From NCBI GenBank assembly GCA_027068915.1, contig JAMOLT010000010.1, positions 62,001-126,000 of the forward strand: a stretch of 64,000 nucleotides of DNA, read 5' to 3'. Source of the stretch: Sedimenticola sp. Lineage in GTDB: Bacteria > Pseudomonadota > Gammaproteobacteria > Chromatiales > Chromatiaceae. The notes beneath the pieces are model-generated. The model ran no database searches and was not told the DNA's origin. It was given only the letters and a program-made list of their open reading frames with translations. Positions 13,461 through 62,745 of the stretch are shown piece by piece. The position numbers and the translations under genes were made by a program. Position 1 is the stretch's first letter. Each line of letters starts with the position of its first letter.

Positions 13461-13526
13461 TTTGCCCCTTCCCCTGGAACTGGGTATGCTCGAATCATCA
13501 CAACCGTTGCTGTTCATCCAAAACAC

Positions 13527-23877: not shown

Positions 23878-23964
23878 GCCGGGGTGGTGAAATTGGTAGA
23901 CACGATGGATTCAAAATCCATTGGCCGCAAGGCCGTGCCGGTTCAAGTCCGGCCCTCGGTACCA
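23878..23964 (+). tRNA. tRNA-Leu (CAA)
   Basis: An 87-nt class II tRNA with encoded CCA. The acceptor stem pairs GCCGGGG with CCTCGGT. The anticodon arm is ATGGA-TTCAAAA-TCCAT, giving anticodon CAA (reads UUG). A long variable arm (GGCCGCAAGGCC) and the T arm GCCGG-TTCAAGT-CCGGC follow. It has its own promoter and a terminator six bases after CCA. Confidence 0.97.
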
Positions 23965-46184: not shown

Positions 46185-47945
46185 TCAATATATGCTCAGA
46201 TCATAAGGCATGCGTGCATAAAAGCCCTTTGCATCTGTGAGCGACAGCAAAAGCTGCACCTGCTTCCATGCCGACTGGGTCAGCGGGCCGCTCTCAAGCC
46301 GGGTTTCCATGCCCATGCCTTTCAGTATTTCTTCCATCAAACTTTCTTCTTGCTGATATTCCTCAACTGCATAATCCTCCAGCTTCGCCCTTTCCGCCGC
46401 TGCTGCAATCGCATCCCCCAGACCACCCAGCTTGTCCACCAGGCCCAGCTTCAGCGCCTGTTTTCCTGACCATACGCGTCCCTGGGCAATTTTATGTACT
46501 TCCGCCTTGTCCAGCTTTCTGCCCTCGGCCACCTTTTCCAGGAATCGGGAATAAATATTGTCGATAAATTTCTGGATCACCGCCATTTCCTGTTCGGTTT
46601 TGGGGCGGTACAGGCTGAATACGTCTGCGGCCGGCGCAGTGCGCGCCACCTCCACGTTCAGGCCGATTTCATTGATGAGTTTCTGGATATTCAGAAACAG
46701 GCCAAATACACCGATAGAACCGGTGATGGTGTTTGGCTCGGCATAGATTTCGTCGCCATAGGCGGAAATCCAGTAGCCACCGGAAGCCGCCACCGTACCC
46801 ATGGAAACAACCAATGGCTTCTGTTCCGCCAGCAATATTGTTTCCCTCTGGATGATGTCGGAAGCGCTGGCGCTGCCTCCAGGACTGTTGACGCGCAGCA
46901 CTACAGCCTTGACCTCATCATCATTTCTGGCCTTGCGCAGCAGGGAAGCGATGTAGTCGCCGCCCACCTGATCCTTGTCATTTCCCGAAATAATCTCTCC
47001 TTCCGCATAGATCACAACCAGCTTGTCGCCGGATCCTTCATCCTGCGGCAAGGTGGCGAAATACTGGGATACGGTTTTCTGCCTTTCAATATCTTTACCA
47101 GCCTCGCTTCCTGTCAGTTCGCTGAGTTTGTCACGCACTTCATCGTAGTAAGCCACGGCGGTAACAACGCCTTTTTCCAGCGCCTGCTCAGCTTCAATTA
47201 TGGCATTCTGTTCTGCAAGATTACGCAACACCGATGGGGGTATATTGCGACTGCCGGCGACACTGGCGACCACCTCTGCGAACAGATCATTCAGCAGGAT
47301 ATTGAGCTGCTCACGATTTTCATCGCTCATGTGATCCTGCAGAAACGGTTCTACCGCGGATTTGTACTTCCCCACCCGGGAAACCTGAACATCAATGCCA
47401 TACTTATCAAAAGCATTGCGAAAATACATGATTTCACTGGCAAAGCCATTGAATTCCAGCAGCCCCAGCGGATTCAGTACCAGGTGGCTCGCCGGGGAAA
47501 CAACATACAGGGTTGCCTCATCCAGATTTTCCTGCCAGGTAATGACCGGCTTTCCCGAGGACTTGAACTCCACAATCGCCTCACGAACCTCCTTGAGCGT
47601 AGCCCAACCGGAGGCATAACCGTCACGCACCACATTCCCTTTGATGTACAGCCCGCTGATCCTGTCATCCTTCGCTGCTTCTTGAATTGCACTCACCACT
47701 GTACGCAGGGACTGTTTGCCACTTTCCTGATCCAGCAACGCCTCATTCAACACCGACGCAAAACGCTGCTGTGGCTGCCGATCCACAATCGGCACTCCCA
47801 GGTTAAGGGTCAAAAGTGTCTTGTCCTCTACGGGTTGGGGAATATCCTGCGCAGTCAACGCCAGGCCGATCAGCACCCCGAGTACCACCAGAACCAGAAG
47901 CACCCCGGTAAAGGACGCAAATACAGTTTTCAGAAAATTTTTCAT
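46185..47945 (-). CDS. sppA: Signal peptide peptidase SppA, 67-kDa type
   Basis: A membrane-bound serine protease that degrades cleaved signal peptides. At 586 residues it is the long tandem-domain form. An N-terminal membrane helix precedes two ClpP-like domains. The catalytic Lys lies in RVGKYKSAVEPF and the Ser in AASGGYWIS, with the conserved VNSPGGSASASD between them. It lies 70 bp after menA on the same strand. Confidence 0.95.
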   Translation of the reverse strand: MKNFLKTVFASFTGVLLVLVVLGVLIGLALTAQDIPQPVEDKTLLTLNLGVPIVDRQPQQRFASVLNEALLDQESGKQSLRTVVSAIQEAAKDDRISGLYIKGNVVRDGYASGWATLKEVREAIVEFKSSGKPVITWQENLDEATLYVVSPASHLVLNPLGLLEFNGFASEIMYFRNAFDKYGIDVQVSRVGKYKSAVEPFLQDHMSDENREQLNILLNDLFAEVVASVAGSRNIPPSVLRNLAEQNAIIEAEQALEKGVVTAVAYYDEVRDKLSELTGSEAGKDIERQKTVSQYFATLPQDEGSGDKLVVIYAEGEIISGNDKDQVGGDYIASLLRKARNDDEVKAVVLRVNSPGGSASASDIIQRETILLAEQKPLVVSMGTVAASGGYWISAYGDEIYAEPNTITGSIGVFGLFLNIQKLINEIGLNVEVARTAPAADVFSLYRPKTEQEMAVIQKFIDNIYSRFLEKVAEGRKLDKAEVHKIAQGRVWSGKQALKLGLVDKLGGLGDAIAAAAERAKLEDYAVEEYQQEESLMEEILKGMGMETRLESGPLTQSAWKQVQLLLSLTDAKGFYARMPYDLSIY

Positions 47946-48015: not shown

Positions 48016-48888
48016 TCAAAAAATCAGTGCTGCGCAAAAAACCGCGGAAAAGACCAGCTGGAAGCGTGCTGTGTCCGCCAGCAGACGATTGAGCTCTTTC
48101 CCGGCGGGCAAGGTAAAGGCCTGGAGGATCAAGTACAGAGCCACGGGAAGCAACAGCCCCGGCAGCCAGGAAATCAAATCCGTCACATACAGGCATAGCA
48201 GCAACAGGAAAGGTGACAATACCAGCAAGGCATACTCCACCTGGCTGGCCTTGGGCGGCAGCAACACCGCCAGGGTCTTGCGCCCGCTCCTGGCATCGGT
48301 TTGGCGATCCCGATAATTGTTCACCACCAGCACGGCGGCGGCAAACGACCCCAGCATGCTGCCGGCCAGCAGCGCCGCCGGACTGATCTGTCCAGTTTGC
48401 AGGTAGTAGCTGCCCAGGGTGGCGCCCAGGCCAAAAAACAGGAACACAAACAGCTCTCCAAGGGGCGTTGCCGAGATGGGCCATGGCCCACCGGAATAGG
48501 CCGCTCCTGCAGCCAGGGAGACCAGGCCCAGCAGCAGGATGGGCCACCCACCCACTGCCACCAGGTAGATTCCCAGAACAAAGGCGCAGGCAAACGCAAG
48601 CAATGCACCCCGCTGTACCATTGTTGCAGTAAGCCAGCCCTGGGCCGTTGCCCGTGGGGGTCCCAACCGGTCGGGACCATCTGTACCCTTGCGCGCATCG
48701 GCGGCATCATTGTGCAGATTGGTGCCAATCTGTATGCATACGGCCGCCAGCAGCGCAGCCAGGGCGGGCAGCAGCTGCAAGCCGCCCTTTTCCGCCCAGG
48801 CCAGGCAGGTGCCGGTCAGCACCGGGCTGACGGACAAACCCAGGGTTTTGGGGCGAATCGCTGACAGCCAAACGGTCAGGGGGCTCAT
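48016..48888 (-). CDS. menA: 1,4-dihydroxy-2-naphthoate polyprenyltransferase
   Basis: Prenylates DHNA to demethylmenaquinone at the inner membrane. A 290-residue UbiA-type enzyme with eight or nine helices. The first Asp-rich motif is NLHNDAADARKGTD and the second is NNYRDRQTDARSG. The N-terminus WLSAIRPKTLGLSVSPVLTG is typical of MenA. It is the last gene of the nos-men run, three bases after menB. Confidence 0.95.
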   Translation of the reverse strand: MSPLTVWLSAIRPKTLGLSVSPVLTGTCLAWAEKGGLQLLPALAALLAAVCIQIGTNLHNDAADARKGTDGPDRLGPPRATAQGWLTATMVQRGALLAFACAFVLGIYLVAVGGWPILLLGLVSLAAGAAYSGGPWPISATPLGELFVFLFFGLGATLGSYYLQTGQISPAALLAGSMLGSFAAAVLVVNNYRDRQTDARSGRKTLAVLLPPKASQVEYALLVLSPFLLLLCLYVTDLISWLPGLLLPVALYLILQAFTLPAGKELNRLLADTARFQLVFSAVFCAALIF

Positions 48889-48891
48889 CGC

Positions 48892-49713
48892 TCAGGGGCG
48901 GCGGGGGAACTTGCTGAAATCCGGCTCCCGTTTTTCCAGAAAGGCATCCCGGCCTTCCTGCGCTTCCACAGACATGTAAAACAGTGCCGTGGCGTTACCC
49001 GCCAGCTCCTGAATACCCGCCAAGCCGTCGGTATCGGCGTTGAAACCCGCCTTGAGCACACGCAGGGCAGTAGGTGAGTGCTTGAGCATCTGCCTGCACC
49101 AGCGCAGGGTTTCTTCCTCCAGTTCCGCCAGGGGCACCACGGCATTCACCAAGCCCATTTCCAGGGCTTCCCCGGCATCGTACTGACGGCACAGAAACCA
49201 GATTTCCTTGGCTTTTTTCAGCCCCACTGTGCGCGCCATCAGGCCCGCCCCCAGGCCCGCATCAAAAGAGCCGACTCTGGGGCCGGTCTGACCGAAGCGG
49301 GCATTGTCCGCGGCTATAGTCAGGTCGCAAACCAGGTGCAGCACATGACCACCGCCGATGGCGTATCCTGCCACCATGGCGATGACCGGTTTGGGCAGGC
49401 GCCGGATCTGCATCTGCAGGTCCAGTACATTCAAATGCTGTACGCCCTGTTCGTCCTTGTATCCACCCTCTGTACCACGCACTTTTTGATCCCCGCCGGA
49501 ACAAAAAGCCTTGTCCCCTTCGCCGGTAAGGATGATAACGCCGACATCCACATCATGATGCGCATGATGAAAGGCGTCGATAAGTTCCTTGACGGTCTGG
49601 GGGCGAAATGCATTTCGCACCTGGGGACGATTGATGGTGATTTTCGCCACCCCATCGAGATGTTCATAGCGTATGTCTTCAAACTGCTCTTCCAGCAGGC
49701 GATTCCAGTTCAT
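48892..49713 (-). CDS. menB: 1,4-dihydroxy-2-naphthoyl-CoA synthase
   Basis: Closes o-succinylbenzoyl-CoA to DHNA-CoA. A crotonase-fold protein of 273 residues from the ATG at 49713 ([18 protein letters not shown]). MenB marks: [49 protein letters not shown] and [11 protein letters not shown] longer frame to 49740 overlaps menD and is not needed. It lies 14 bp after menD. Confidence 0.95.
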
Positions 49714-49727
49714 AGGAGAAAACCCCG

Positions 49728-51404
49728 TCAATCCGCCCATTGCGCAGCAACGTTCTGGTGCAGCGCATTGCTGTGGGCACTATCGATAACAATTTCAATC
49801 AGCTGCATTCCTTTCCCCCGTATTGCCCGGGAAAAAGCCTGCGCAAAAGCATTCATATCCCGCACCTGCACGGAGGTCACGCCGAATGCAGCGCTTGCCT
49901 GTCCGTAGTCCAACGCTACCGGGGTGCGCCAGCAGGCGTCATATTCGGGAAGCGCCCGCTGGGGCAGGAAATCAAAGATACCGCCTCCCTGGTTGTTCAG
50001 CAGCAACAATATCATATCCTGATGCCGCGCAAGCGCCAGGGCATTGAGATCATGAAAGAACGCCAGATCACCAACGATTCCCAGTACCTTTCCCTCTCCC
50101 CGCCACATGCTGGCGATCCCCGCCAGGGTGGACAGGTTTCCATCGATGCCGCTGGCGCCACGGTTGCCATGAACAGCAATATCCTTGTTGCCCGTGGAAT
50201 ACGCATCCAGGAAGCGCACCGACATGGAATTCCCGCTGAACAACAGGCTTTGCTCCGGCAATTCCTCCAACGCATGACGAACGACCAGCGCTTCCAGGGG
50301 TAAATCCAGCTGCTGTAACCGGGTTTCCGCCTGCTGGTTCAGCGCTCGCCAGGCTTTCAACCAATCCGGCGCGGGCGGCGGTAATTTCCGGGAAAGCAGC
50401 TGTCGGCAAAGATGTTGGGCGGATACTGGCAGCGTTTCTATGACCATTCCAGGTCTGTCCATGGAGCGCCCGGAGGCATCCACCCACCAGTAGGGCGCAT
50501 GACCCTGTTCATCCAGATACTGTTGCAAGGTTTTGGATACGGGAGTACCACCAAAGTGCAGTACCCACTCTGCCCGCAATTGCACGGCATTCGTCTTGCT
50601 GCGCAGGAACAGATCATAGCGACTGATCGCACCTCCCGAAGAGACAAAGCGCAAACCGGAAAGAGGATCTGCAAGCACCGGACAACCCAAAACCTCACCC
50701 AGGTGCAGCGCATCGGCGCAGGCGGCTCCCGGCCCGCAGATGATGACGCCTTTTGATCCGGCCAGGGTTGCCGCAAGGCCTTGCAGCTCATCCTGGGACA
50801 ATGCCGGTTGCGCCTTGGTCAGGGTCTTCACTTCCACAGCAGATAAGGATTGAGGCAGGAATTTTGGCGTCAGAGGTTCCCGCAGGGAAATATTGGCATG
50901 CACCGGCCCGGCGGCTACTCCGGCAGACTCCCTGACCAGCTGCCTTCCCAGCATCCGCAGGCGATGCAATGCGGCCGGGGAAAACCCGGCAGCAGGCAGC
51001 TGGTGAAACGCCCGCACATGGGAGCCAAACAGCTTGATCTGATCAATGGTCTGATTGGCCATGCACTGCTGCAGCTCCCAGGGACGGTCGGCGCTGAGCA
51101 GAATCAATGGAATTTGTTGCTGCTTGGCCTCCACCACAGCCGGAAACCAGTTGGCGACGGCAGTGCCGGAAGTGCAGATCAGTGCCACCGGCTTCCCGCT
51201 CGCCATGGCCATACCCAGGGCGAAATAACCGCCCCCTCGCTCGTCCACCGCCACATGATACTGCAACTGGGGATGTAGCACGGCGGCCAGGGTCAGGGGA
51301 GTATTGCGCGATCCGGGAGAAAGCACCACCTGCTCCACCCCGGCGCCAACCAGTCCATCCAACAACGCCAGGCACCAGTCCAGATTGCATCTGCCCTGAT
51401 CCAT
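49728..51404 (-). CDS. menD: 2-succinyl-5-enolpyruvyl-6-hydroxy-3-cyclohexene-1-carboxylate synthase
   Basis: A thiamine diphosphate enzyme joining isochorismate and 2-oxoglutarate (SEPHCHC synthase). A protein of 558 residues from the ATG at 51404, which overlaps the menF stop by one base (TAATG). Pyr domain: [15 protein letters not shown] and the cofactor-activating Glu region [16 protein letters not shown] domain: [28 protein letters not shown] and [18 protein letters not shown] longer frame to 51536 lies inside menF. Confidence 0.95.
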
Positions 51405-52780
51405 TAGCGGGTCATTGCGTTCAACATGGGCGCGAACTTGAGCAGAGTCTCCTGCAGCTCCTGTTCCGGGTTCGACACCGGAGTAATGCCGGCCCCGGCA
51501 TAAAGCCGGGCGGTTTTGCCCTGTATCAGGGCGCAACGCAGTATTACCGACATCTGTGCCTCGAAATTGTCACCCAGCCAGCCGAAAGCACCGGTATACC
51601 ATCCACGCGAAAGCCGCTCATGCCGTCGAATCCACGCCAATGCAGCGCTCCGGGGCATACCACCCACGGCGGGAGTAGGATGCAAGGCTTCGAGAATCTG
51701 CAGGGGACGCACGGCAGGCCTTGGCCTGGCGACGACCGATGTGTACAGGTGGGAAAGGGAGCGAAAGGAAAGAGGCCGAGCGGCCTTGTCTGTCTTCAGG
51801 TCGGTGCAAAACGGCTCCAGGGCTTTCTCGATGGCCCGCACCACCGGGGCATGTTCATAGGCTTCCATTTCCGCATTCGGCTGGCATATATGGGCGGGAA
51901 AAGTGCCCGCCAGGGCGTCACAATGAATGCGCTCTGCATTCATGTCGAAAAGCTTCTCCGGCGTTGCGGCAAGCAACACCTCCCGCCCGAAACTTACCGA
52001 AAGCATGGTGCAGCCGGGGTATTGTCTGGCCAGGGACGGAAGCAGCTGACGGTGAGGAACCAGCGTCGGAAACCGCAGCTTCAGCTGGCGCGTCAGTACT
52101 ACTTTTTCCAGCTCGCCTTCGCGCATGGCGTCTATCGCCTCCGCAACACCGCTCTTCCAGGTGGACGCTTCGGGCGACTCGGTCTGCAGAAACGCCGCTG
52201 GCGCTGCCGGTGCCATGGCACCATCGCCCCGCAATGCGGATCGCAGTTGTTTGATCCAGCCGCTGATCACGTTCTCGGGCTGGGTATCCTCGTCACGAAA
52301 ATAGTTGAACGTCAGGACACAGCGTCCATTCTTCCATTCAAACAACAGTTGCGGGATATACAGGCCGGCACTGTCGAATCCCTGCCAGCATTCTTGCGCC
52401 TCGAATGCCGGGTCGAAAGCATGCCCGAGAAAGGCTCGCGCTTTGGCGCGCCCGCTCCCCTGGGTGATTCTCGTCCAGCGGGCCTGGAGCTTTTGGTAGG
52501 CTGCATCCAGTTCCTGAAAGCGCCCCGCGCCCTGTGCGGCCTGGGAAAACGCCATACCCAGCCCCAGCAGACGGTGGCTTCTGGCGGGTTGGTGCCAGTA
52601 CAGCCAGATCCGTGCTTGGGCGGGCGGCGCTGCCAGCTCCCTCACGGGCACCTCGAAGGCAATGGACAGCAAGCCCCGCTGCGCGCCGGACAGGAGGGGC
52701 AAGGCCAGCTGGCGAAGCTCCAGACGCAAGCGCCCCAGCCACACAGGTATGGGTTGCAGCTTGTCTGCGCCTTGCACCAC
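51404..52780 (-). CDS. menF: Isochorismate synthase
   Basis: Converts chorismate to isochorismate, opening the menaquinone branch. 458 residues, with a chorismate-binding C-terminal domain: EKVVLTRQLKLRF, DALAGTFPA, FRSLSHLYTSVVARPRP, LHPTPAVGG and GAFGWLGD. The C-terminus YAGAGITPVSNPEQELQET is canonical. It begins the menF-D-B-A set, four bases after a small nos-linked gene. menH, menC and menE are not present here. Confidence 0.93.
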   Translation of the reverse strand: MVQGADKLQPIPVWLGRLRLELRQLALPLLSGAQRGLLSIAFEVPVRELAAPPAQARIWLYWHQPARSHRLLGLGMAFSQAAQGAGRFQELDAAYQKLQARWTRITQGSGRAKARAFLGHAFDPAFEAQECWQGFDSAGLYIPQLLFEWKNGRCVLTFNYFRDEDTQPENVISGWIKQLRSALRGDGAMAPAAPAAFLQTESPEASTWKSGVAEAIDAMREGELEKVVLTRQLKLRFPTLVPHRQLLPSLARQYPGCTMLSVSFGREVLLAATPEKLFDMNAERIHCDALAGTFPAHICQPNAEMEAYEHAPVVRAIEKALEPFCTDLKTDKAARPLSFRSLSHLYTSVVARPRPAVRPLQILEALHPTPAVGGMPRSAALAWIRRHERLSRGWYTGAFGWLGDNFEAQMSVILRCALIQGKTARLYAGAGITPVSNPEQELQETLLKFAPMLNAMTR

Positions 52781-52784
52781 GGGA

Positions 52785-53252
52785 CTATTTTATGGTTTCG
52801 AAGCGGTAGGGAATGATGATCAGGCCTTCCGGCGTATCCAACATGACCCTGGCTTCCCAGTCCATGCGCTGGCGGATGCAGACCGGCAACAACCCTTCTC
52901 CTTCAAACCGGCCCTCTTCCACAGACTGCAAACGCGGGCGGTTATAGCCCATGTTCATGGTTACTCCGGAAAAATCCACTTCCACTTTCCTCGCCTTTCT
53001 GCCCTGCACCCGCACCTGAAGCTGCAGGGGCTTGGTCAGGGGAATCGTCCGGGGAAGGATGCTGAATTCCACTTTGCCGCCACCGGGCAGCTCCGCCGCG
53101 CACGGGCCTTGGCGCAAATCGCAATCGGACAGGGGCAGCACCTGGGCGGGGCCAGGCTCGAAATAATCACGGAAATAGTAGGCTACTCCACCCAAAATGG
53201 CAGCGGCCAGAAAAATAATACCGGGAACCAGCCAGTTTTTCTTTTCTGCCAC
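52785..53252 (-). CDS. Small anchored periplasmic protein between nosY and menF
   Basis: A 155-residue protein with one N-terminal membrane helix (about 7-26, LVPGIIFLAAAILGGVAYYF). The outward beta-rich domain contains CDLRQGPCAAELPGGG, VTMNMGYNRPRL and GEGLLPVCIRQRMDWEARV. The Met-x-Met pair, the late C-x-x-x-x-M and the general strand pattern recall YtkA/FixH-like copper-linked domains, but I cannot assign a family. It sits 11 bp after nosY and 4 bp before menF, so it links the two halves of the operon. A role in copper delivery to NosZ is possible. Confidence 0.65.
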   Translation of the reverse strand: MAEKKNWLVPGIIFLAAAILGGVAYYFRDYFEPGPAQVLPLSDCDLRQGPCAAELPGGGKVEFSILPRTIPLTKPLQLQVRVQGRKARKVEVDFSGVTMNMGYNRPRLQSVEEGRFEGEGLLPVCIRQRMDWEARVMLDTPEGLIIIPYRFETIK

Positions 53253-53263
53253 GAGCAGCCCTC

Positions 53264-54091
53264 CTAAGGCAGATCGCCTTTACGGAACAGGCGGTACCCC
53301 AGCCATGCACACAGAGAGCCCACCAACAGCGGATACACCAGTGCCCACAGCAGATAGCCGGTTTCGCCAAAGTTGTCCAGAATCACATAGGCAGAAGGCC
53401 CCAGCAGCACCAGTTGGGGATCGAACAGCAACATGGCGCCGGTACGGAATACCTGCAATGGATTGGCCAGGGCAATGGCGATGATGGTTTCCGGGGGCAG
53501 CCCCTGCTTGATCAGGGATCCCAGCAGAATCAGATCCAGGAATAGCAGCAAAAACAACCAGATGAGAAATGCCGCACCGGTAGCCACATCAGAGGAACGC
53601 GCCAGAGTGGAAACCAGCATACCGATACCAAGAAAGCACCAGGCCAGAGAAATCAGAAAACCGGTATAGAACAGCACCTGGATCCAGGGGATTTCCACAC
53701 CCTTGAAAATACCCCAGGCGACAGCACCGAACATGGCCAGCACCACCGGTAGAAAAACCACAAAAAACCGCCCCAGCAGCTTGCCCCAGAACCAGCTCGC
53801 CAGGCTCACGGGAAGAGACAGCATGTATTCGAAGATGCCCGCCTCCCTGTCACCGGCGACGGAGCGAACCGTGGTAATCAGCACGAACAAGGGCAACACC
53901 GCCATGGTGATTTGCAGATAGGTCACCAACATCCGCGACAGGCCGGTAAAACCCATGATGCGCGATTCGGTCAGGCCGGAGACAAACAGCGCCACCACCA
54001 CGCCACCGAAAACCAGGGTGTAGACCATGAACCAGCGCGAGCGAAGGGATTCACTGATATCTGCTATCGCAGTCAGCATCAAGTGTTTCAT
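53264..54091 (-). CDS. nosY: NosY, ABC permease for N2O reductase maturation
   Basis: A 275-residue ABC-2 type permease with six or so membrane helices, beginning MKHLMLTAIADISESLRSRW. Characteristic: SVAGDREAGIFEYMLSLPV and LVSTLARSSDVATGAAF. With NosF and NosD it supports assembly of the copper-sulfide CuZ site. It lies six bases after nosL. Confidence 0.92.
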   Translation of the reverse strand: MKHLMLTAIADISESLRSRWFMVYTLVFGGVVVALFVSGLTESRIMGFTGLSRMLVTYLQITMAVLPLFVLITTVRSVAGDREAGIFEYMLSLPVSLASWFWGKLLGRFFVVFLPVVLAMFGAVAWGIFKGVEIPWIQVLFYTGFLISLAWCFLGIGMLVSTLARSSDVATGAAFLIWLFLLLFLDLILLGSLIKQGLPPETIIAIALANPLQVFRTGAMLLFDPQLVLLGPSAYVILDNFGETGYLLWALVYPLLVGSLCAWLGYRLFRKGDLP

Positions 54092-54097
54092 GAAAGG

Positions 54098-54580
54098 CTA
54101 TTCTCCTGGTTCGCCATGGCCGTGGCTGTCGCCACGATGGCTATGGGTTTGTTCTTCTATAGTATAGACATGCTTCTTCGCTGCTTCAAAATCCAGCGCG
54201 GCTTCTTCTTTCTCAGGAGTGGCACCCAGTCCATAGCCCATGGGCGTGACTTTTCCCGTGACATACCAGGCCTTGCGGGCATCGATCCAGTTGCCATTGC
54301 GGTAATCCGTCACCCACACTTCTGTGGAAGGATTGTCTTTCCAGGGCTGCTGATCCAGCCAGATCACCGCGCAGCCGATATCATCAAATTTGTACAGCTT
54401 GCCTTTCTCTCCGGCGGGGCCGCCACGCACCTGGGCGGAATAGTTGTGATCACTCACCGTCATGGCGCAACGCGCACAGACCTCCCTGTCCCAGCGCACC
54501 TTGCCCGGCCCCGTGTCCGGCTCGCCGGAACAACCGGCAAGCGCCAGCAACAAGCCGAGGGCGCCAATGACACTACGCAT
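54098..54580 (-). CDS. nosL: NosL, copper-chaperone lipoprotein
   Basis: A 160-residue lipoprotein with lipobox LALAGC and the NosL copper(I) motif CARCAMTVSDHNYSAQ. Next come the fragments KFDDIGCAVIWLDQQ and VTDYRNGNWIDARKAWYV. It delivers copper to the CuZ site in complex with NosDFY. Its start overlaps the end of nosF by 8 bp. A His/Glu-rich tail (HSHRGDSHGHGEP) could also bind metal. Confidence 0.93.
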   Translation of the reverse strand: MRSVIGALGLLLALAGCSGEPDTGPGKVRWDREVCARCAMTVSDHNYSAQVRGGPAGEKGKLYKFDDIGCAVIWLDQQPWKDNPSTEVWVTDYRNGNWIDARKAWYVTGKVTPMGYGLGATPEKEEAALDFEAAKKHVYTIEEQTHSHRGDSHGHGEPGE

Positions 54581-55439
54581 CCTGCGCTTCGTCCAGATGG
54601 ATGCCTTTCAGGATGGCGGCATAACGGGAGAGCATCCCGAGAAAACGCAGGCGGTCGGGCCCGGCTACCCGTCCCTCCCAGATCGTTTCATCCCGCACGT
54701 CACGGAAACCCCATTCGGATACGGTCTGGGCGAACGCCTTGCTGGGGCGCACCAGGGTCAGGCGACAGCGGAGCATGCTGGTCATATCCACATCATCCGC
54801 CACATGGTCATTGAGTACGATCTCTCCCTGATCCATTTCCACCACGCGGTTCACCAGAGAGGCAACTTCATCCAGGCGGTGACTGGAAATAACCATCGCC
54901 GCCTTGTCGCGCCTTGCCTCGAGCAGCTGGAAAAAGATATGGCGGGCTTCGGGATCGAGATTGGCGGCGGGTTCATCCAGCACTAGCAGCGTACATTCCC
55001 GCCCCAAGGCGATGCTGATGAGCATTTTCTGCTTCTGCCCGCCGGACAGCTTGTTGAAGGGCTGGCGGCGGATCTTGCGAATATCCAGACCCAGCTCCTG
55101 CGCCACAGCAATCATATTGTCCGGGTTGCTGTCGCATACTCCGGCGGCGAAGCGTATCAGCTGTCCCACCGGCATTTTCAGGGGCGGGGAGATCTGCGGT
55201 ACGAAACCTACCTGTTTGAGGACATCGGTACGATGCTGGCGCGGCTCCAGCCCATTTACAGTTACTTTCCCGCCACACTGATATTCCCCTAGCAGGCAGC
55301 GGATCATGGTGGTTTTTCCAGCACCGTTGGAGCCAACCAGGGCAACACGGTCGCCCCGGTCAATTTGCAGGTCAATGCCCTTGAGCACTTCTACCCGGCG
55401 AAAGCGCTTGGTGACGCCATGAAATTCAATCATTGCCAT
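54573..55439 (-). CDS. nosF: NosF, ABC ATPase for N2O reductase maturation
   Basis: A 288-residue ABC ATPase: Walker A GSNGAGKTT, Q-loop VPQISPP, signature KLSGGQKQK, Walker B LLVLDEPAANLD and the switch His in SSHRLDE. It powers NosY/NosD in CuZ maturation. It overlaps nosL by 8 bp and lies 35 bp after nosH, the largest gap in this operon. Confidence 0.93.
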   Translation of the reverse strand: MAMIEFHGVTKRFRRVEVLKGIDLQIDRGDRVALVGSNGAGKTTMIRCLLGEYQCGGKVTVNGLEPRQHRTDVLKQVGFVPQISPPLKMPVGQLIRFAAGVCDSNPDNMIAVAQELGLDIRKIRRQPFNKLSGGQKQKMLISIALGRECTLLVLDEPAANLDPEARHIFFQLLEARRDKAAMVISSHRLDEVASLVNRVVEMDQGEIVLNDHVADDVDMTSMLRCRLTLVRPSKAFAQTVSEWGFRDVRDETIWEGRVAGPDRLRFLGMLSRYAAILKGIHLDEAQDA

Positions 55440-55474
55440 TATTTGTCACTTAAAACTGCGGGGCCACAAGAATA

Positions 55475-56452
55475 TCACAGCAAATCCCCCGGCCCCTTAT
55501 ATTTGATTGTCAGGGCGCCGGTGGGGCAGGCATCCACACAGCGCAGGCAGCGGGTACAGTCAGCACCGATATCAACCTCCATTTCCGCGGCCCGCCCCTT
55601 CAGCACTGTGTCCAGCACATGAGGCACCAGGCAGACCTTCCGGCATTCCCCTTCATGGTAGCAATTGGGCAACTTATAATGCACGGTAAAAGGCGAAGTC
55701 GCGCCAACAAAGCCATATGTAAGCCCGATAGGACAAGCATAGCGGCACCAGGCGCGGCGGGAGAAGAAAATCTCGAACAGCAACAGCAATGCCACCCAGA
55801 TCAGCGCCACACCCGGCCCATAGATCAGCGCACGACTGAGGATGCCTGTAGGCGACATGGTTTCATACACGGTGTAACCGGTAACAATAGCCAGAATCAC
55901 GAATACCAGCCACAGCCAGGTACGGGAACGCCGGTCAAACTGATAGTCTTTGGCCCAGCCTTTTTCCACCAGCTTCAGGTGTAGCATCTCTGCCCATTCC
56001 GCCACCAGATGATAGGGACAGACCCAGGAGCAAAAGGTGCGACCGCCCAGCAGCCACCACAAAATAAATATCGTAACCGTGCCGATAATCAGGTTGATTA
56101 CCACATGCTTGAAAGCCAGCATCACCTGCAGGGCGGAGTTCAGATCCGCCATGTGGAAACCCGCAAAACGCGAAGCGGTCAGGGCGCCTTCCAGCAGCTG
56201 AATATCCAGATAGTAGGAAACCAGGAACAGTAGATTGACTGCCGCCAGTACTGCCCAGCGCTTACGCCGCCATTTCTCTGGCTGCTTGTTCGCTGCTTTC
56301 TCCCTGAGTTCGATATGAATGGCCTCAATACGCTCCTTGTCCGCAAACTTGTGTTTGTGCATTTCCTGCACTTCTTCCGGAAAATCCTTCTTGGATACGC
56401 GCCTGGGCGCACCCCCGAGGAGTACCCGTAGTGATTCGGCAATACCGCTCAT
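55475..56452 (-). CDS. nosH: NosH, NapH-like membrane iron-sulfur protein
   Basis: A protein of 325 residues from the ATG at 56452, which overlaps the nosG stop by 4 bp (ATGA). The start at 56524 would lie within nosG. A charged N-terminal region of about 80 residues is followed by four membrane helices. Cytoplasmic CSWVCPYH and CRYACPIG motifs follow, then a C-terminal ferredoxin motif CTRCLRCVDACP plus CYHEGECRKVC. NapH/NosH proteins with NosG form a menaquinol dehydrogenase. The adjacent men genes fit that. Confidence 0.9.
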   Translation of the reverse strand: MSGIAESLRVLLGGAPRRVSKKDFPEEVQEMHKHKFADKERIEAIHIELREKAANKQPEKWRRKRWAVLAAVNLLFLVSYYLDIQLLEGALTASRFAGFHMADLNSALQVMLAFKHVVINLIIGTVTIFILWWLLGGRTFCSWVCPYHLVAEWAEMLHLKLVEKGWAKDYQFDRRSRTWLWLVFVILAIVTGYTVYETMSPTGILSRALIYGPGVALIWVALLLLFEIFFSRRAWCRYACPIGLTYGFVGATSPFTVHYKLPNCYHEGECRKVCLVPHVLDTVLKGRAAEMEVDIGADCTRCLRCVDACPTGALTIKYKGPGDLL

Positions 56453-57291
56453 GTCCTCATCCCACGGCTGTTGGCGCGGCTGTCGCTGCTGTCCATAACG
56501 ATTACGGCTGGTTCTATCGGGCAAATCATCTCACACACACCACAGCCCACACAGCCCTCTAAAATCACCGGCGTCATAGCGCCGTTGATATCCCGCAGCT
56601 CGATAGCATGTTTCGGCGGGCACTCATTCTCCTGGCGCTGCGCCACCCGCGCTATCTTGGCTGTTGATTTGCGCTGGTCTTCCAAAGCGCATTCGACAAT
56701 ACTGATCTCGATGGGGCACTGGCGCACACAAAGATCGCAAAGTTCCAGATCATACGGGTGGTCGGCAACCTTGATCGGATTCCAGCGGTCAATATCGGCG
56801 TAACGCAGTTTGCCCGGAAAATCAGCGCCTCGCGCCTGCCCCTTGAACCCCTGCCCCAGCACCGCCAGGCATTGCGCTGGCTGCACCACCTTGGCAATGC
56901 CCATATCCACTTGCGAGGGGAACGAGATTTCGTGAATCAATGCCCCTGTAGGGCAGGCCAGCACACATTGCAGGCCGTCACAGGAAAAATCGCAGGCTTG
57001 CGCCCGCGAGTCGATATACGGCACACCAATGCCCAGACCATCTGTCAGATCAGCCAGCTTGATGGCTTCTACCGGGCAAACCTGTACGCATTGCCCGCAC
57101 TTGATGCAGGCAGCGAGAAATTCTTCCTCCAGCAAAGCGCCGGGAGGGCGCAATCGCTCCACCCATTTTCCGATTACCGGCACCATGCCCAGCAGGGAAA
57201 TGCCCGTCACACCCACCGTCAGGGCGATGGAGCGCAGAAACTTGCGGCGTTCCTTTTGCTTGGCCGTCAAGCGCTTTGCTTTCTTGCTCAT
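56449..57291 (-). CDS. nosG: NosG, periplasmic NapG-like ferredoxin
   Basis: A 280-residue protein with a twin-arginine signal (RRKFLRSIALTVGVTG). Four [4Fe-4S] sites are visible: CIKCGQCVQVCP, CDFSCDGLQCVLACP, CDLCVRQCP and CVGCGVCEMICP. With NosH it passes electrons from menaquinol to cytochrome c in epsilonproteobacterial-type nos systems. It starts one base after nosD and overlaps nosH by 4 bp. Confidence 0.92.
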   Translation of the reverse strand: MSKKAKRLTAKQKERRKFLRSIALTVGVTGISLLGMVPVIGKWVERLRPPGALLEEEFLAACIKCGQCVQVCPVEAIKLADLTDGLGIGVPYIDSRAQACDFSCDGLQCVLACPTGALIHEISFPSQVDMGIAKVVQPAQCLAVLGQGFKGQARGADFPGKLRYADIDRWNPIKVADHPYDLELCDLCVRQCPIEISIVECALEDQRKSTAKIARVAQRQENECPPKHAIELRDINGAMTPVILEGCVGCGVCEMICPIEPAVIVMDSSDSRANSRGMRT

Positions 57292-57292
57292 A

Positions 57293-58639
57293 TCAATTCT
57301 CCAGGCTGCTCTTCAGCTGCTCCAGGGCATTGGACACATCTGCCGGATCATCTTCAGCAGCATCAGGCTGCTGCTCGGGCCGCTGGGACTGAACGACGAC
57401 GGCTTTATTTTCCGCCAGTAACTTCAGATAAGGCGTTTTGTCCCGCACCAGCAGACGCGGTTCAGAAAACGGCGCCAGCCGCTCCAGAAAATCCAACACT
57501 TCCAGCAAGGGTGAGCCTTTGAAAAACTGTGCATAAGGCACATCCTGCCACAAGCGATCAGCATAGGTATACAGCTCATAAGGGCTGTCACCAACGCCAT
57601 CGACATCCTGGTCGAAACCTTCGTAGTCACTCCAGTAGTTCCCTTCCCAGTCGTTGCGGTTGGCCGTTTCTCCGCTGGACACAACGATTTGGGTCAAATT
57701 GTCAACGAAGCGGTTGGCCTTGAAAATATTGCTGTGCCAATCATTGAGAAAGCGAATCCCGATACCATTGTAGGCAATCAGGTTATCGGTAAAGCGATTG
57801 GTAGTATCAGGCTGATAGGGGGAGACATCGATATACAGCCCGCTGGCGCAATAAAGTATTTCATTGCCTTCGATTATCAGATCTGAAGTTTCCTTGAAGC
57901 CGATGCCAACACCCGTAGGGCCGGCGGCGTGGGCAATATGATTGTTCCTTACCACCACGCCGTCACTGTACATAAGAAAAATGCCAACGGAATTGTTTAC
58001 ATAGTGGTTGTTCTCGACCAGATTGTAACGGGAATACATAAAGTGCAGGGAATAGCGGGCATTGCTGGTGCGATTGCCCGAGATGGTGTTATTGGCGGAA
58101 TACCAAACCACCATGTCCCGCACCTGATCAGATACGTTATCCAGGATCTTGTTGTCGAAGCTGTACCACAGGCGCACGGAATCGCCTTTCTGCCCCAAGG
58201 GGAAGTCCGGCTTGGAGCTGATGCGATTGCGTTTTACGATATTGTTGCTGGACTGCTGCAAATCGACACCGAACAGCACATTGTCCATGACATTGTCTTT
58301 GATGACATTGAAGTTACCGCGCACCTGCACACCGGAATCAATATCATTGGCAGACTCGCCGGAATTGGTCAAATGCAGGTTTTTCAGGGTGGCCCCATCG
58401 GTTTTCAAAACCACCACGGAGCCTTTTCCACCTGCATCAATGGTTGCCTTGCTCTGCCCGTCGATGGTAATGGGGCGTGTCACCACTACCGGCCCGGCAT
58501 AGGTGCCGGGCGACAACGCCAGGGTTTCCCCGTCCGGTGTCTGGTCAATCAGCTCCTGCAGGGTCGGTTGGCCGCCGGCAGCACAAAGCCCCGGCACCAG
58601 CAGCAACAGCAGCAAACCCCATAGGCGCATGGCCATCAC
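57293..58639 (-). CDS. nosD: NosD, periplasmic copper-site maturation protein
   Basis: A 448-residue secreted protein with a signal peptide (about 1-21, LWGLLLLLLVPGLCAAG) and a right-handed parallel beta-helix of CASH type. Asn-rich rungs recur (NVIKDNVMDN, NNIVKRNRIS, NLVENNHYVNN). The C-terminal NosD part includes NYWSDYEGFDQDVDGVGDSPY. The last 40 residues are an acidic/Gln-rich tail. It accepts copper and sulfur through NosFY/NosL. Its start overlaps the nosB stop by 4 bp, although in-frame ATGs at 58636 and 58630 are alternatives. Confidence 0.94.
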   Translation of the reverse strand: MMAMRLWGLLLLLLVPGLCAAGGQPTLQELIDQTPDGETLALSPGTYAGPVVVTRPITIDGQSKATIDAGGKGSVVVLKTDGATLKNLHLTNSGESANDIDSGVQVRGNFNVIKDNVMDNVLFGVDLQQSSNNIVKRNRISSKPDFPLGQKGDSVRLWYSFDNKILDNVSDQVRDMVVWYSANNTISGNRTSNARYSLHFMYSRYNLVENNHYVNNSVGIFLMYSDGVVVRNNHIAHAAGPTGVGIGFKETSDLIIEGNEILYCASGLYIDVSPYQPDTTNRFTDNLIAYNGIGIRFLNDWHSNIFKANRFVDNLTQIVVSSGETANRNDWEGNYWSDYEGFDQDVDGVGDSPYELYTYADRLWQDVPYAQFFKGSPLLEVLDFLERLAPFSEPRLLVRDKTPYLKLLAENKAVVVQSQRPEQQPDAAEDDPADVSNALEQLKSSLEN

Positions 58640-59883
58640 TTATCGCGGGCATCTTTGTGCCGCATCAACGCGGCCACCGCCAGCAATGCCGACATCAACA
58701 GCATCAGGCCAAAACCAATGCTGGGATAGGAGTGGGTGGTAAACTGCGCCACCTTGCCCTGACCAAATACCGTTGGCATGAAGGGCTTGACGGTAAATGC
58801 ACCCATGGCATTCAGGTTATGGCCATACCACCACAGCCAGGCGGAATACTCGATGAGGAAAAACACCGGCAGAGCCATGGGCACCAGGATCAGCAGCCAG
58901 TACAGGGGGCCGCTGCTTTTGCGCGCCCCCCAGACCATTATTATCATGGCGGCAATGATGCCCCAAAACACCACATGGGATGCTGTGGTCATGGTCTTGA
59001 CCAGCGGCTCGATCTCTTCCGGAACATTGAAATAACGGCCCAGGCTTTGTTCATAATGCCAGCGCATGACTTGCAGATTACTGCCCGTCCATTCCTCACG
59101 CTCATTGGCGGGTTTCTTATTCTGATCGATCAGGAACAGGATTTTGAGCATTTCAATATTGGCTTCCTTGTCACCGATATCTGCTACTTTACCGGCACCC
59201 TCGCCCAGCTGCACCTGCATACCTTCAGCACTGACCAATTCGCTACCCAGGCCAGCCAGTTTGCGGGTAATCTCATCTTCACTGGCCTGCTGTTCCACGA
59301 TGGACACATTGTCTTCAGGAAGAGCTTCCTGCATGCGCTTGATGACGGACTTACCCGCATCGGTTTCGCCACCCCGTTCGGCATCCTGATCCATGGCGCT
59401 CACCAGGGCGCGTACATAGCCGGCGCTTTGGTATTTCAATCCGTCAGCCCCATACCAGGTCATGTACATCCAGATGGCAATGACGGCAAAACCCATCGAC
59501 ATCAGCGGCACGCGGATCTTCGGCTTGGTGCAGGCAAAGCCCAGCAGCATCACACCCAGAAATGACATCAGGAAAAGGGAGAATGGGCGTTCGACCACGC
59601 CACCCGCAGCAATGGGGTACATGCCCACATAGTGGTTGATGGTATCCATCTCATGCACACAGTCCAGTGCTTCTTCTTCTGTAACTTCTTCCTTTTCAAT
59701 TTTCTTGCAGCCATTGAACACGCCGTTCATATGAAAGTGAATTCTCACCCCATCCGGAAAGGCATCCTCCGGATAGTTTGGAGCGGTAAGAGAGACCCAC
59801 CATGCTGGCGCGAAATAGATGATTACCAGCAGTACAAGACTGGCCAGAATCAGCAGGTTGGAGATGATTACACGCTTGGACAT
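58636..59883 (-). CDS. nosB: NosB-like polytopic membrane protein of clade II nos clusters
   Basis: A 415-residue protein with an N-terminal helix (about 8-29). A soluble part contains a two-Cys motif (FNGCKKIEKEEVTEEEALDC). Two more helices follow, then a periplasmic segment of about 130 residues and a C-terminal group of three or four helices with WLWWYGHNLNAMGAF. The place between the cytochromes/nosZ and nosD is that of nosB in Wolinella-like clusters, whose function is unknown. The name rests on position and general build. Confidence 0.75.
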   Translation of the reverse strand: MSKRVIISNLLILASLVLLVIIYFAPAWWVSLTAPNYPEDAFPDGVRIHFHMNGVFNGCKKIEKEEVTEEEALDCVHEMDTINHYVGMYPIAAGGVVERPFSLFLMSFLGVMLLGFACTKPKIRVPLMSMGFAVIAIWMYMTWYGADGLKYQSAGYVRALVSAMDQDAERGGETDAGKSVIKRMQEALPEDNVSIVEQQASEDEITRKLAGLGSELVSAEGMQVQLGEGAGKVADIGDKEANIEMLKILFLIDQNKKPANEREEWTGSNLQVMRWHYEQSLGRYFNVPEEIEPLVKTMTTASHVVFWGIIAAMIIMVWGARKSSGPLYWLLILVPMALPVFFLIEYSAWLWWYGHNLNAMGAFTVKPFMPTVFGQGKVAQFTTHSYPSIGFGLMLLMSALLAVAALMRHKDARDK

Positions 59884-59999
59884 GACAATACCTGTTGGAT
59901 CGAAAAAACTGAAGGATAAAGCTATGTGTTTTTACCATGGAAGGCTATGACGATTCGCAATCAAGCACCCAGGAAAAATCACCACCTGCCGTCAAAGTG

Positions 60000-60035
60000 A
60001 AAAACTCCCTGCCGAGACATCATCCCGGCAGGGAG
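60000..60035 (-). terminator. Intrinsic terminator after the diheme cytochrome gene
   Basis: A perfect 10-bp stem (60005-60014 with 60026-60035) and an 11-base loop. Five A at 60000-60004 read as U5 on the leftward transcript. It lies about 50 bases past the cytochrome stop and ahead of nosB, so nosB probably has its own promoter or depends on read-through. Confidence 0.8.
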
Positions 60036-60084: not shown

Positions 60085-60804
60085 TCAATCGTAATCAGGA
60101 TTCAGCCATTCCTTGGAAGGCGCCAGATCCTCCTTGGGCACGGGAATCCGGGAAACATAGTTGATTACATGCAGTGCATCGTCATGGGAGAAGCGCTTGA
60201 TCTGCTCGACCATTTCCGGATTGGCGTTGCGACGCTTGCCATCACGAATCCATTCGAATTGGCGCACCATGTATTTGTAGTGCTGACCCTGAATTTTCGG
60301 GTAGTACTTGTCCGCCATACCTTCACCATGATCACCATGACATTTGACGCAGTTGTCTTCGTACAACTTTTTACCCTTTTCAAAGTCGGGGGTACCTTCT
60401 TCCCACTCGCCCTTACCGTTATCCGGGTTCATGGGCAGCTTGGCGATGTAATGCGTTACATCTGCCATAGCCTGAGAGCCGCCGATGGATTCCGGCTTGG
60501 CGAAGGGATACATGGTCGGATTGTCCCGGTTACCTTCGCGGATATCCGCCAGCTGCTTGACCAGTACGCTCTGATGTTGCCCGGAAATCTGGGGGAAAGT
60601 ACCGTCTTTGGAACCCCAGCCTTCTGTGAGATGGCAGGCAGCGCAAACTTCGTACACCTCAATACCGTTTTCATGATCCGGTTTCAGATGCAAGGCTTCA
60701 TCTCTCTCTCCCCCCTCGGTCATCCACACCGCAAAAGCGGTGCCACTGACCAGCATGGTAGTAGCGGCCAAGCCAAGCATGGATACCATCAAACGTTTAT
60801 TCAT
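60085..60804 (-). CDS. Periplasmic diheme cytochrome c (c4-like)
   Basis: A 239-residue protein with a signal peptide (about 1-26) and GGAGA before the ATG. Two haem sites: CAACH (54-58) and CVKCH (152-156). Each haem domain is followed by a c4-type GQHQSVLVKQL or GQHYKYMVRQFEW segment and a Met-containing loop. It resembles the last two domains of the neighbouring hexaheme protein and is a likely shuttle from quinol dehydrogenases to NosZ. It has its own terminator. Confidence 0.9.
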   Translation of the reverse strand: MNKRLMVSMLGLAATTMLVSGTAFAVWMTEGGERDEALHLKPDHENGIEVYEVCAACHLTEGWGSKDGTFPQISGQHQSVLVKQLADIREGNRDNPTMYPFAKPESIGGSQAMADVTHYIAKLPMNPDNGKGEWEEGTPDFEKGKKLYEDNCVKCHGDHGEGMADKYYPKIQGQHYKYMVRQFEWIRDGKRRNANPEMVEQIKRFSHDDALHVINYVSRIPVPKEDLAPSKEWLNPDYD

Positions 60805-60911: not shown

Positions 60912-60925
60912 TTGAGCGACATCAA
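60912..60925. promoter_or_regulatory. FNR/DNR-like operator
   Basis: TTGAG-CGAC-ATCAA differs from the TTGAT-N4-ATCAA consensus at one base. It is about 108 bp upstream of the diheme cytochrome start, which fits an activator site at an oxygen- or NO-controlled promoter. Confidence 0.55.
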
Positions 60926-61148: not shown

Positions 61149-62342
61149 CTAGTCATCCTGATAGGACAACCATGCCAGAATATCCGCAATCTCTGAATCA
61201 CTAAACTGCTGAAATATCTGTTGATCCCTGGGGTCATCATGGATGCGCTCACCCTTGCGGAACCTTCCCACCTGGCGCAACAGATATTTACTGTGCTGTC
61301 CGGTGAGCATGGGAATGGTCAGCAGGCGGTTTCCCTCCCCTTTCTCCCCATGACAGGTAGCACATTCCTTGCGGTACAAGCGACCTCCGGCATCCGCATT
61401 TCCCGGATAATGAGGAATATTCAGGGATCTCTTGCTCTCTTCCAGGCGCGCCAGGGCATCAAAGCCTTTTTCCTCTACCACATCCTCTTCATCGATAACC
61501 GCAATATGGGTTGGCAAATCAATGCTGGCCAGATAGGAGGTGATGGTATGCAAATCCGTGCCAGGCAACTCCCGGTCATTGGAAAAGGGAATCATGGGAA
61601 TATTGATGCGCTTGCGGTTCTTGAAATACTCCAGCTGCCGGGCCAGGTATTCGGGATTCATGCCCGCCAACCGGGGATATTCACCATCCGGCGTTCCCTG
61701 GGCGTAGATTCCGTGACAGGAGGCACAGGTTTGCATGATATCTTCGGCATCTTCCGGGTCAAATTCCGCTATATCGGCCTTTGCCGTATGGGAGCGCGGC
61801 AGGCGATGGGCAATCCCCTTATGGCAGTCGATGCAGGTTTTACCCTCATCCACTGCATCCTTGTGGGCACGGGCAGGGAAGCGTGCCTGTCCCGCCAAAT
61901 CCATGACTGAAAAATCGTGGCAATTACGGCATTCTCTGGAATCCGTCTCTTCCATGACCTTCCATACCCGCTCCGCCAGTGCCGGGCGCCGCGCTTCAAA
62001 TTTTTCTTTGGTATTGATGCTCCCCATAAGCCAGTGATAAACCTCGCCGGAGGCCTGTACCTTGCGCAGCAATTTGGGGATCCATTCTTTGGGCACATGG
62101 CAATCCGGACAGCCAGCCTGCACGCCCGACGGATTGGAAAAATGTACAGATGTCTTGTATTCCTGGTATACATTGTCGTGCATTTCGTGGCAGGAAATGC
62201 AAAAAGACATGCTGTTGGTTGCCTCCATGGCGGTATTGAAGCCACCCCAAAGCATCATGCCCAATACAACCAGGACAATGCCACTCCAGAGCGAACGACG
62301 CTTATACACGGGCTTTGCAGAAGGACTTTTCGTTTTCATCAT
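61149..62342 (-). CDS. Hexaheme NapC/NirT-type quinol dehydrogenase fused to a diheme c4-like module
   Basis: A 397-residue protein with one N-terminal membrane helix (about 18-36). The NapC/NirT-like part carries four haem sites: CISCH (48-52), CPDCH (78-82), CRNCH (138-142) and CIDCH (170-174). The c4-like part carries two more, CASCH (206-210) and CATCH (327-331), with GQHSKYLLRQVGRFRKGER at the end. NapC proteins oxidise menaquinol at the membrane. The fused c4-like module would pass electrons on towards NosZ. It follows the monoheme cytochrome by 61 bp and ends at a hairpin. Confidence 0.9.
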   Translation of the reverse strand: MMKTKSPSAKPVYKRRSLWSGIVLVVLGMMLWGGFNTAMEATNSMSFCISCHEMHDNVYQEYKTSVHFSNPSGVQAGCPDCHVPKEWIPKLLRKVQASGEVYHWLMGSINTKEKFEARRPALAERVWKVMEETDSRECRNCHDFSVMDLAGQARFPARAHKDAVDEGKTCIDCHKGIAHRLPRSHTAKADIAEFDPEDAEDIMQTCASCHGIYAQGTPDGEYPRLAGMNPEYLARQLEYFKNRKRINIPMIPFSNDRELPGTDLHTITSYLASIDLPTHIAVIDEEDVVEEKGFDALARLEESKRSLNIPHYPGNADAGGRLYRKECATCHGEKGEGNRLLTIPMLTGQHSKYLLRQVGRFRKGERIHDDPRDQQIFQQFSDSEIADILAWLSYQDD

Positions 62343-62403: not shown

Positions 62404-62745
62404 TCAGGGAGCGAGCTTGGACACATAATCCGCCAGTTTTTCCAGGTCTTCATCACTGAAGCGCGGCTCGCCTTCCGGCGTCACCATTACGCCTTTCATG
62501 GCGATAGACTGTCCGTTTGCGCGGGCGCCACTCATGATGTCCTTGATCTGTTGCAGTACATAGGCCTTGTTCTGGCCGGCAATCTTGGGATAGGCGGGCA
62601 TCAGCGGCGTTTTTCCATCCTTTCCATGACAGGCGGCGCATGTCATATACAGCCTTTTGCCGGAAGCTGCGGACGCAACGCTGCCAAAAGCAAAAGCGGC
62701 AAGAACCGCGGACAGAACAATTGTTCTACTGGATAACCTAATCAT
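62404..62745 (-). CDS. Periplasmic monoheme cytochrome c
   Basis: A 113-residue protein with a signal peptide (about 1-26, ending ASAAS) and one haem site CAACH (36-40). Class I type features follow: YPKIAGQNKAYVLQQIKDI, a Met-containing loop and a terminal helix DLEKLADYVSKL. An AGGAG lies upstream of the ATG. It is the first gene after nosZ, beyond an intrinsic terminator, and is a likely electron donor to NosZ. Confidence 0.9.
   Translation of the reverse strand: MIRLSSRTIVLSAVLAAFAFGSVASAASGKRLYMTCAACHGKDGKTPLMPAYPKIAGQNKAYVLQQIKDIMSGARANGQSIAMKGVMVTPEGEPRFSDEDLEKLADYVSKLAP

Follow-up and report, generated by a model that had tools for sequence, protein, structure and literature searches.

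A clade II nos cluster for the reduction of nitrous oxide (N2O) has reportedly been described in Wolinella succinogenes by Hein et al. in 2017. The model built on this bacterium gives NosG and NosH (NosGH) a preference for menaquinol, and as Wolinella possesses menaquinone only, synthesis of the quinone need not be coupled to N2O reduction. In Escherichia coli and other Gammaproteobacteria, menaquinone synthesis is encoded by a classical cluster of the order MenFDHBCEA. For bacteria that are not menaquinone-only, the quinone that donates electrons to clade II N2O reductases is, to our knowledge, not settled. In clade II systems, electrons are proposed to travel via NosGH, NosBC2 and NosC1, with a bc1 route in addition (PMC11539149). 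Here we analyze a 64,000-nucleotide stretch (the window; G000:C10:62001-126000) of a 2.83-Mb Sedimenticola genome, in which twelve genes, nosB-D-G-H-F-L-Y, orf155 and menF-D-B-A, follow one another on the minus strand from 59883 to 48016. The window genome shares with the Wolinella cluster a Sec-type NosZ, NosB, NosD, NosG/NosH, NosF/Y/L and cytochromes c, and differs from it by the additional orf155 and menFDBA tail.

The reading we favor, which we hold with some reserve to be the probable one, is that nosB-menA forms one clade II nos transcription unit that co-supplies menaquinol for NosG/NosH in a bacterium that also bears a ubiquinone gene. NosG and NosH would together form a quinol dehydrogenase, taking electrons from menaquinol and passing them through NosB and the cytochromes c of the cluster to NosZ, as in the Wolinella model, and the coupling of the men genes to nosB-Y would supply menaquinol when N2O respiration is switched on. 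A low-potential quinone may thus be made upon induction of N2O respiration, because the only menD over cut-off in the genome, together with menF-B-A, joins maturation and electron-transfer genes, and a ubiquinone gene is present too.

The nos-men gene string

The string comprises the following genes, in reading order:

58636..59883, minus strand: nosB, membrane protein, named by position and conservation in clade II clusters
57293..58639, minus strand: nosD (TIGR04247, 403 bits, over cut-off)
56449..57291, minus strand: nosG, NapG-like ferredoxin (NapG model 1.9e-34, below cut-off)
55475..56452, minus strand: nosH, NapH-like membrane ferredoxin (TIGR02163, NapH/MauN subfamily, over cut-off; start moved to an internal ATG)
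54573..55439, minus strand: nosF, ATP-binding cassette (ABC) ATPase (PF00005)
54098..54580, minus strand: nosL (PF05573)
53264..54091, minus strand: nosY, ABC permease (PF12679)
52785..53252, minus strand: orf155, membrane-anchored Ig-like domain (18-row alignment; predicted structure)
51404..52780, minus strand: menF, isochorismate synthase (TIGR00543, 258 bits, cut-off 224.75)
49728..51404, minus strand: menD, 2-succinyl-5-enolpyruvyl-6-hydroxy-3-cyclohexene-1-carboxylate (SEPHCHC) synthase (TIGR00173, 425 bits, over cut-off; start at the ATG overlapping the menF stop)
48892..49740, minus strand: menB, 1,4-dihydroxy-2-naphthoyl-CoA (DHNA-CoA) synthase (TIGR01929, 440 bits, over cut-off)
48016..48888, minus strand: menA, DHNA polyprenyltransferase (TIGR00751, 166 bits, and NF004751, 265 bits, both over cut-off)

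With the chosen starts, spacings range from -13 to +35 bp, all on one strand: nosB/nosD -1 bp (-4 if a GTG start is used), nosD/nosG +1, nosG/nosH -4, nosH/nosF +35, nosF/nosL -8, nosL/nosY +6, nosY/orf155 +11, orf155/menF +4, menF/menD -1, menD/menB -13 (+14 with an alternative ATG nine codons on) and menB/menA +3 bp. An earlier note on this DNA had described twelve genes spaced by -8 to +35 bp; all twelve are present and the range is right, with the possible exception of menD/menB. Its claim of one tight nos-men string also stands, the orf155/menF junction being too short for a terminator. Judged from this order and spacing, nosB-menA is probably one transcription unit, with nosB as its probable first gene.

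Upstream of the string, the minus-strand reading order is nosZ, a small cytochrome c, a NapC-cytochrome c fusion and a further cytochrome c, and sppA follows menA downstream:

62863..64000, minus strand: nosZ, clade II (Sec-type) N2O reductase, 3' part (TIGR04246, 835.6 bits, cut-off 625)
62404..62745, minus strand: small cytochrome c of 113 amino acids with one CxxCH (translation; position kept in many relatives)
61149..62342, minus strand: NapC/NirT-type multihaem protein fused to cytochrome c domains (PF03264, 5.1e-71, and PF00034)
60085..60804, minus strand: cytochrome c of the nos cluster, in two stretches (PF00034; precedes nosB in most of the clade II clusters compared)
60005..60035, minus strand: terminator-like hairpin of 14 pairs with a T run, located after the cytochrome gene and before nosB
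59884..60004, minus strand: likely promoter or regulatory stretch of the nosB-menA unit
46185..47945, minus strand: sppA (TIGR00705, over cut-off)

The open frame of nosZ runs past the window end (G000:C10:124863-127244). With a Sec-type NosZ and with nosB, nosG and nosH in the cluster, the locus belongs to clade II; no NosR-like family match was found among the cluster proteins scanned in the stretch from 62863 down to menA. For NosB, neither Pfam nor NCBIfam gives a match up to E 0.001, and at E 0.1 there is only a weak match to a domain of unknown function.

The predicted terminator-like hairpin, a strong one 120 bp before nosB, sets nosB-menA apart from the upstream cytochrome and nosZ part, and hairpins stand at the same place, by eye, in all eight other operon-type genomes compared. 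A single unit of nosZ and nosB-menA was dropped as a candidate on account of this hairpin. A TGATTGCG..ATCATGGC-like block upstream of nosB is common to three close relatives and weaker in the window. The earlier note had looked to a promoter and terminator between nosY and menF as signs of separate transcription; a sigma-70 consensus scan found no promoter-like match on the minus strand from the nosY start to menF, and nosY and orf155 hold only weak hairpins inside their coding sequences. A search for FNR boxes (TTGATN4ATCAA, up to two mismatches) gave 38 sites against 26.2 by chance, with 2 of 100 shuffles reaching 38, and these counts were not used as evidence; the best candidate near the cluster (60912-60925, one mismatch) lies upstream of the cytochrome gene at 60085-60804 rather than of nosB.

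The remaining men genes lie beyond nosZ, a correction to the earlier nos-men picture: menC (C10:127354-128451, plus strand; 147 bits, cut-off 130.55) is divergent from nosZ, and menE (C10:128806-130194, minus strand) follows it, its best match of 291.9 bits being below the cut-off of 330.15 in a gene that adjoins menC/nosZ. In the window genome, men genes therefore flank the nos cluster on both sides. Over cut-off, menD is present there in a single copy and ubiA, a ubiquinone gene, is present as well, in keeping with the earlier suggestion that the organism may otherwise use ubiquinone. The gene mqnC of the futalosine route has no match in the window genome; the route was rejected as a hidden source of menaquinone, since none of 14 genomes checked has mqnC over cut-off (three weak matches, 18-20 bits).

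The linking gene, orf155, matches no Pfam or NCBIfam family (Pfam is empty even at E 10). Its AlphaFold model (mean pLDDT 88) combines a membrane helix with an Ig-like sandwich for which matches in the PDB are unspecific. A Cys and a Met are invariant in the 18-row alignment, from which we would guess at a FixH- or copper-chaperone-like role. The gene is kept after nosY across the family and also in some other families (G160, G180, G271). A partial second copy occurs in G035 (L090 13967-14200), several kb from the first.

Conservation and recurrence of nos-men linkage

The order of nos genes followed by orf155-menF-D-B-A is found in eight genomes of the Sedimenticola genus (g1), the window's included, and in two of a second genus (g3; G002 and G004); for G089 and G094, where a contig ends in or near menF, it rests on two contigs each, and the G089 piece starts inside nosD. 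The earlier note had proposed looking for genomes with menF close behind nosY, and in nine of these ten operon-type genomes the orf155/menF junction measures 1-6 bp, a constancy beyond what chance would give. Against the window's MenF, those of six of the seven remaining g1 genomes show 47-56% identity, and the junction has therefore persisted through considerable divergence. A contig scan with MenD alone gave only two Sedimenticola records, at 90% (whole query) and 96% (last third), and the genus is assigned from this match. The space between menD and menB is too small for menH in the eight g1 genomes. In g1 genomes whose stretch reaches that far, sppA comes next after menA (2.8 kb off in G094); in G002 and G004 it was not observed downstream of menA. 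Lying 70 bp 3' of menA in the window, sppA may be read through from the nosB-menA unit. In G093 the junction is naturally broken by an insertion with GGDEF/EAL-like and periplasmic-binding-like genes (L044 9976-13267; by eye or weak match).

Trees of MenD and of joined NosD-G-H-F-Y agree on how the ten operon genomes divide into two halves, and in both G002 and G004 fall in the half of G093, G094 and G110; these are quick trees, and the order within that half differs between them. We infer that the joined unit was inherited or transferred as a block in two related genera.

In the order sample (147 genomes, all one family), nosD over cut-off served as the proxy for nos, and second nosD copies not beside nosZ exist. 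There, menD is over cut-off in 92 genomes and nosD in 78: both in 39, menD only in 53, nosD only in 39 and neither in 16. Both genes lie on one contig in 22 of the 39, within 25 kb in 15, at 54-83 kb in five and more than 1 Mb apart in two; G089 and G094 are joined across contig ends, and the other 15 are on contigs that cannot tell. The stretches read from G025 and G035 (g12) and from G142 (g48) have the men cluster running convergently to nos, and in G076 (g13) menF-D is convergent with menB-A-C beyond, on the nos strand.

The class sample (369 genomes) contains 21 genomes with NosZ over the clade II cut-off, and menD is over cut-off in 12 of them, or in 10 of 18 once the family (G000, G002 among the 12) is left aside. 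The phylum sample (398 genomes) adds seven clade II genomes, three with menD. Among the 13 genomes of other families with clade II NosZ and MenD, eight, from five families and two classes, have the two genes no more than 21 kb apart, and one, G443, cannot be told, its nos contig being only 7 kb. The linked genomes show five layouts: nosY, a cytochrome and menC-D-B-F on one strand in G248, G364 and G463; nosZ divergent from menF-D-B-A-C in G363 and G461; nosY then menE on one strand with menF-D-B-A-C convergent in G268; nosY then menA-B-C on one strand with menE-F-D beyond in G763; and, in another class, nosZ divergent from menE-F-D-B-C in G685. The earlier note's picture is thus to be widened to close pairing outside Sedimenticola in other layouts. 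Linkage occurs in f99, f103, f123, f196 and f206, and not in f85, f98, f126 and f228 (f58 is outside these nine determinable families); the rough chance of five of nine within 25 kb is 3e-7, with families treated as independent. In a 54-row tree of compared MenD stretches, which does not cover all menD genomes, linkage changes at least six times on the 32 rows, 24 of them linked, that remain after leaving out nos-less and undeterminable genomes; a first count of nine changes was discarded, as it had scored such genomes as unlinked. G763 also carries two nearby NosZ genes of equal score beside its nos-men region (G763:C1:804307-810813; L091). Duplicate, near-identical nosZ genes are described for two enriched organisms in another study (PMC10390337).

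The clade I-type control comprised 35 genomes with NosZ at 430-510 bits, which is under the clade II cut-off and was taken to indicate clade I (34 from the class sample and G585 from the phylum sample); NosZ matches below 430 bits and the partial broken ones of G213 and G277 were left out of both clade groups. In these nos stretches NosZ is 29-41% identical to the window's, NosB and NosG have no match, and NosH-like matches are weak and partial, presumably representing NosR. None of the 35 stretches contains men genes, a 32% MenB-like match in L142 having been rejected as another enoyl-CoA hydratase, and menD is over cut-off in three of the 35 genomes (one being G230, which is also clade II). 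For menD, the 12 of 21 clade II genomes differ from the 34 clade I-type class genomes at 1.6e-4 (Fisher's exact test; 1.1e-4 without G230), in a comparison where the two groups also differ in ancestry. In stretches of up to 20 kb, men genes occur in 8 of 25 other-family clade II genomes and 0 of 35 clade I-type genomes (Fisher's exact test, 4e-4), counts that are minimum values as several stretches on both sides are short contigs (3.6-14 kb).

Explanations for the linkage

As the gene layouts indicate, men genes are physically coupled to clade II nos in several ways in Pseudomonadota, the nos-men string being one of them, and this suggests that some bacteria make menaquinone for breathing N2O. 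A broader proposal would be that in ubiquinone-using Pseudomonadota the menaquinone of nos-men lineages is chiefly dedicated to clade II N2O reduction, with nos and men as a portable module assembled several times and moved as a block; we put this forward tentatively and consider it rather doubtful.

Several observations weigh against the favored reading. menD over cut-off is absent from nine of the 21 clade II class genomes (G003 and eight others), none of which has mqnC over cut-off. Clade II nos can therefore evidently run without menaquinone, and in these genomes NosGH may use another quinone or the bc1 route may suffice. In the order sample, the association between menD and nosD is negative (odds ratio 0.30, p 0.001, kinship ignored), and menD and nos are more than 1 Mb apart in G074, G078 and G271. 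Four of the 13 other-family genomes are not closely linked, with 62 kb in G591, 2 Mb in G271 and different contigs in G230 and G243. Between orf155 and menF, G093 has 3,777 bp with opposite-strand genes, and the window genome has menC and menE outside the nosB-menA unit. The region has 23 terminator-like sites against 13.7 in shuffles (standard deviation 3.7), and nosG holds an 8-pair hairpin with a T run (57009-56990). This hairpin is present in the near-identical G089 and absent from eight other relatives; because it is shared only with G089 among the nine, we interpret it as arising incidentally from the coding sequence. For Nitrosophilus labii, another clade II organism, no significant change of menaquinone-synthesis genes on N2O addition is reported (PMC11539149).

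Our claim is thus one of coupling at the level of lineages and not of a rule, since neither menD nor mqnC passes the cut-off in nine of the 21 clade II genomes. What the earlier note proposed, that menaquinone is made as part of the N2O-respiring state, finds partial support in the tight string, ubiA and the recurrence with clade II nos; these nine genomes and the odds ratio of 0.30 speak against a strict tie between the two.

General anaerobic co-regulation would place the men genes behind a nos promoter with menaquinone serving mainly other enzymes (anaerobic reductases, sulfur oxidation). Other uses of menaquinone in the family are indicated by the 53 of 147 order genomes with menD and no nosD over cut-off, and all of them would depend on the one menD over cut-off that the window genome has. 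However, such co-regulation would not predict pairing with clade II but not clade I-type nos in the samples examined, although genomes of the two clades also differ in ancestry, and we regard it as unlikely. We think it improbable that men and nos landed together by chance and were kept or moved without functional coupling: the position of G002 and G004 within the G093/G094/G110 half for both MenD and nos is compatible with block transfer, and arrangements are unstable across the family, but linkage recurs in five other families with different junctions, at the rough chance of 3e-7. Very unlikely, finally, is an internal promoter in nosL, nosY or orf155 that drives menFDBA separately. One minus-strand promoter-like match in nosL (54189-54161, 9/12) would favor it, though such matches are not enriched in the region (7 against 6.1 in shuffles); both the lack of any from the nosY start to menF in the sigma-70 scan and the 1-6 bp junctions in nine of ten genomes speak against it.

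Neighboring genes and comparison with described clusters

The NapC-cytochrome c fusion upstream of nosB might act as a second quinol dehydrogenase in N2O reduction. Among the other nos loci compared, it has a near full-length match only in G077 and G268, and most of the others match only its C-terminal cytochrome part. A second NosD-like gene over cut-off (G000:C55:98434-99741; L105) lies away from the single nosZ of the window genome and adjoins a gene that looks, by eye, like a superoxide dismutase; the other seven g1 genomes each have a second nosD match over cut-off as well. Elsewhere in the window, a 1087-amino-acid protein with a protein kinase domain (10197-14102) adjoins an extracytoplasmic function (ECF) sigma factor, followed by Lcl_C-domain proteins. 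A tRNA-Leu (CAA) lies at 23878-23964 on the plus strand, and at gathering thresholds Rfam matched only a tRNA in the window.

Although nos and men are each already known, we did not find their fusion and recurrence with clade II nos reported: full-text searches of the open-access literature, with subscription papers and preprints outside their scope, yielded no report of nos-men linkage. A conserved string that joins a quinol-oxidizing module to quinone synthesis would offer a direct genetic handle on the quinone of clade II, and nos-men linkage could mark genomes of N2O sinks whose capacity depends on menaquinone. Compared with the E. coli-type cluster, the window genome has the same menF, menD, menB and menA, with menC and a candidate menE nearby, and the same o-succinylbenzoate route. 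Its men set differs in being split around nos, in leaving no room for menH between menD and menB, and in being fused behind nosY-orf155. The layouts in f99, f103, f123, f196 and f206 likewise place clade II nos near a men cluster, with junctions and gene orders that differ from those of the window.

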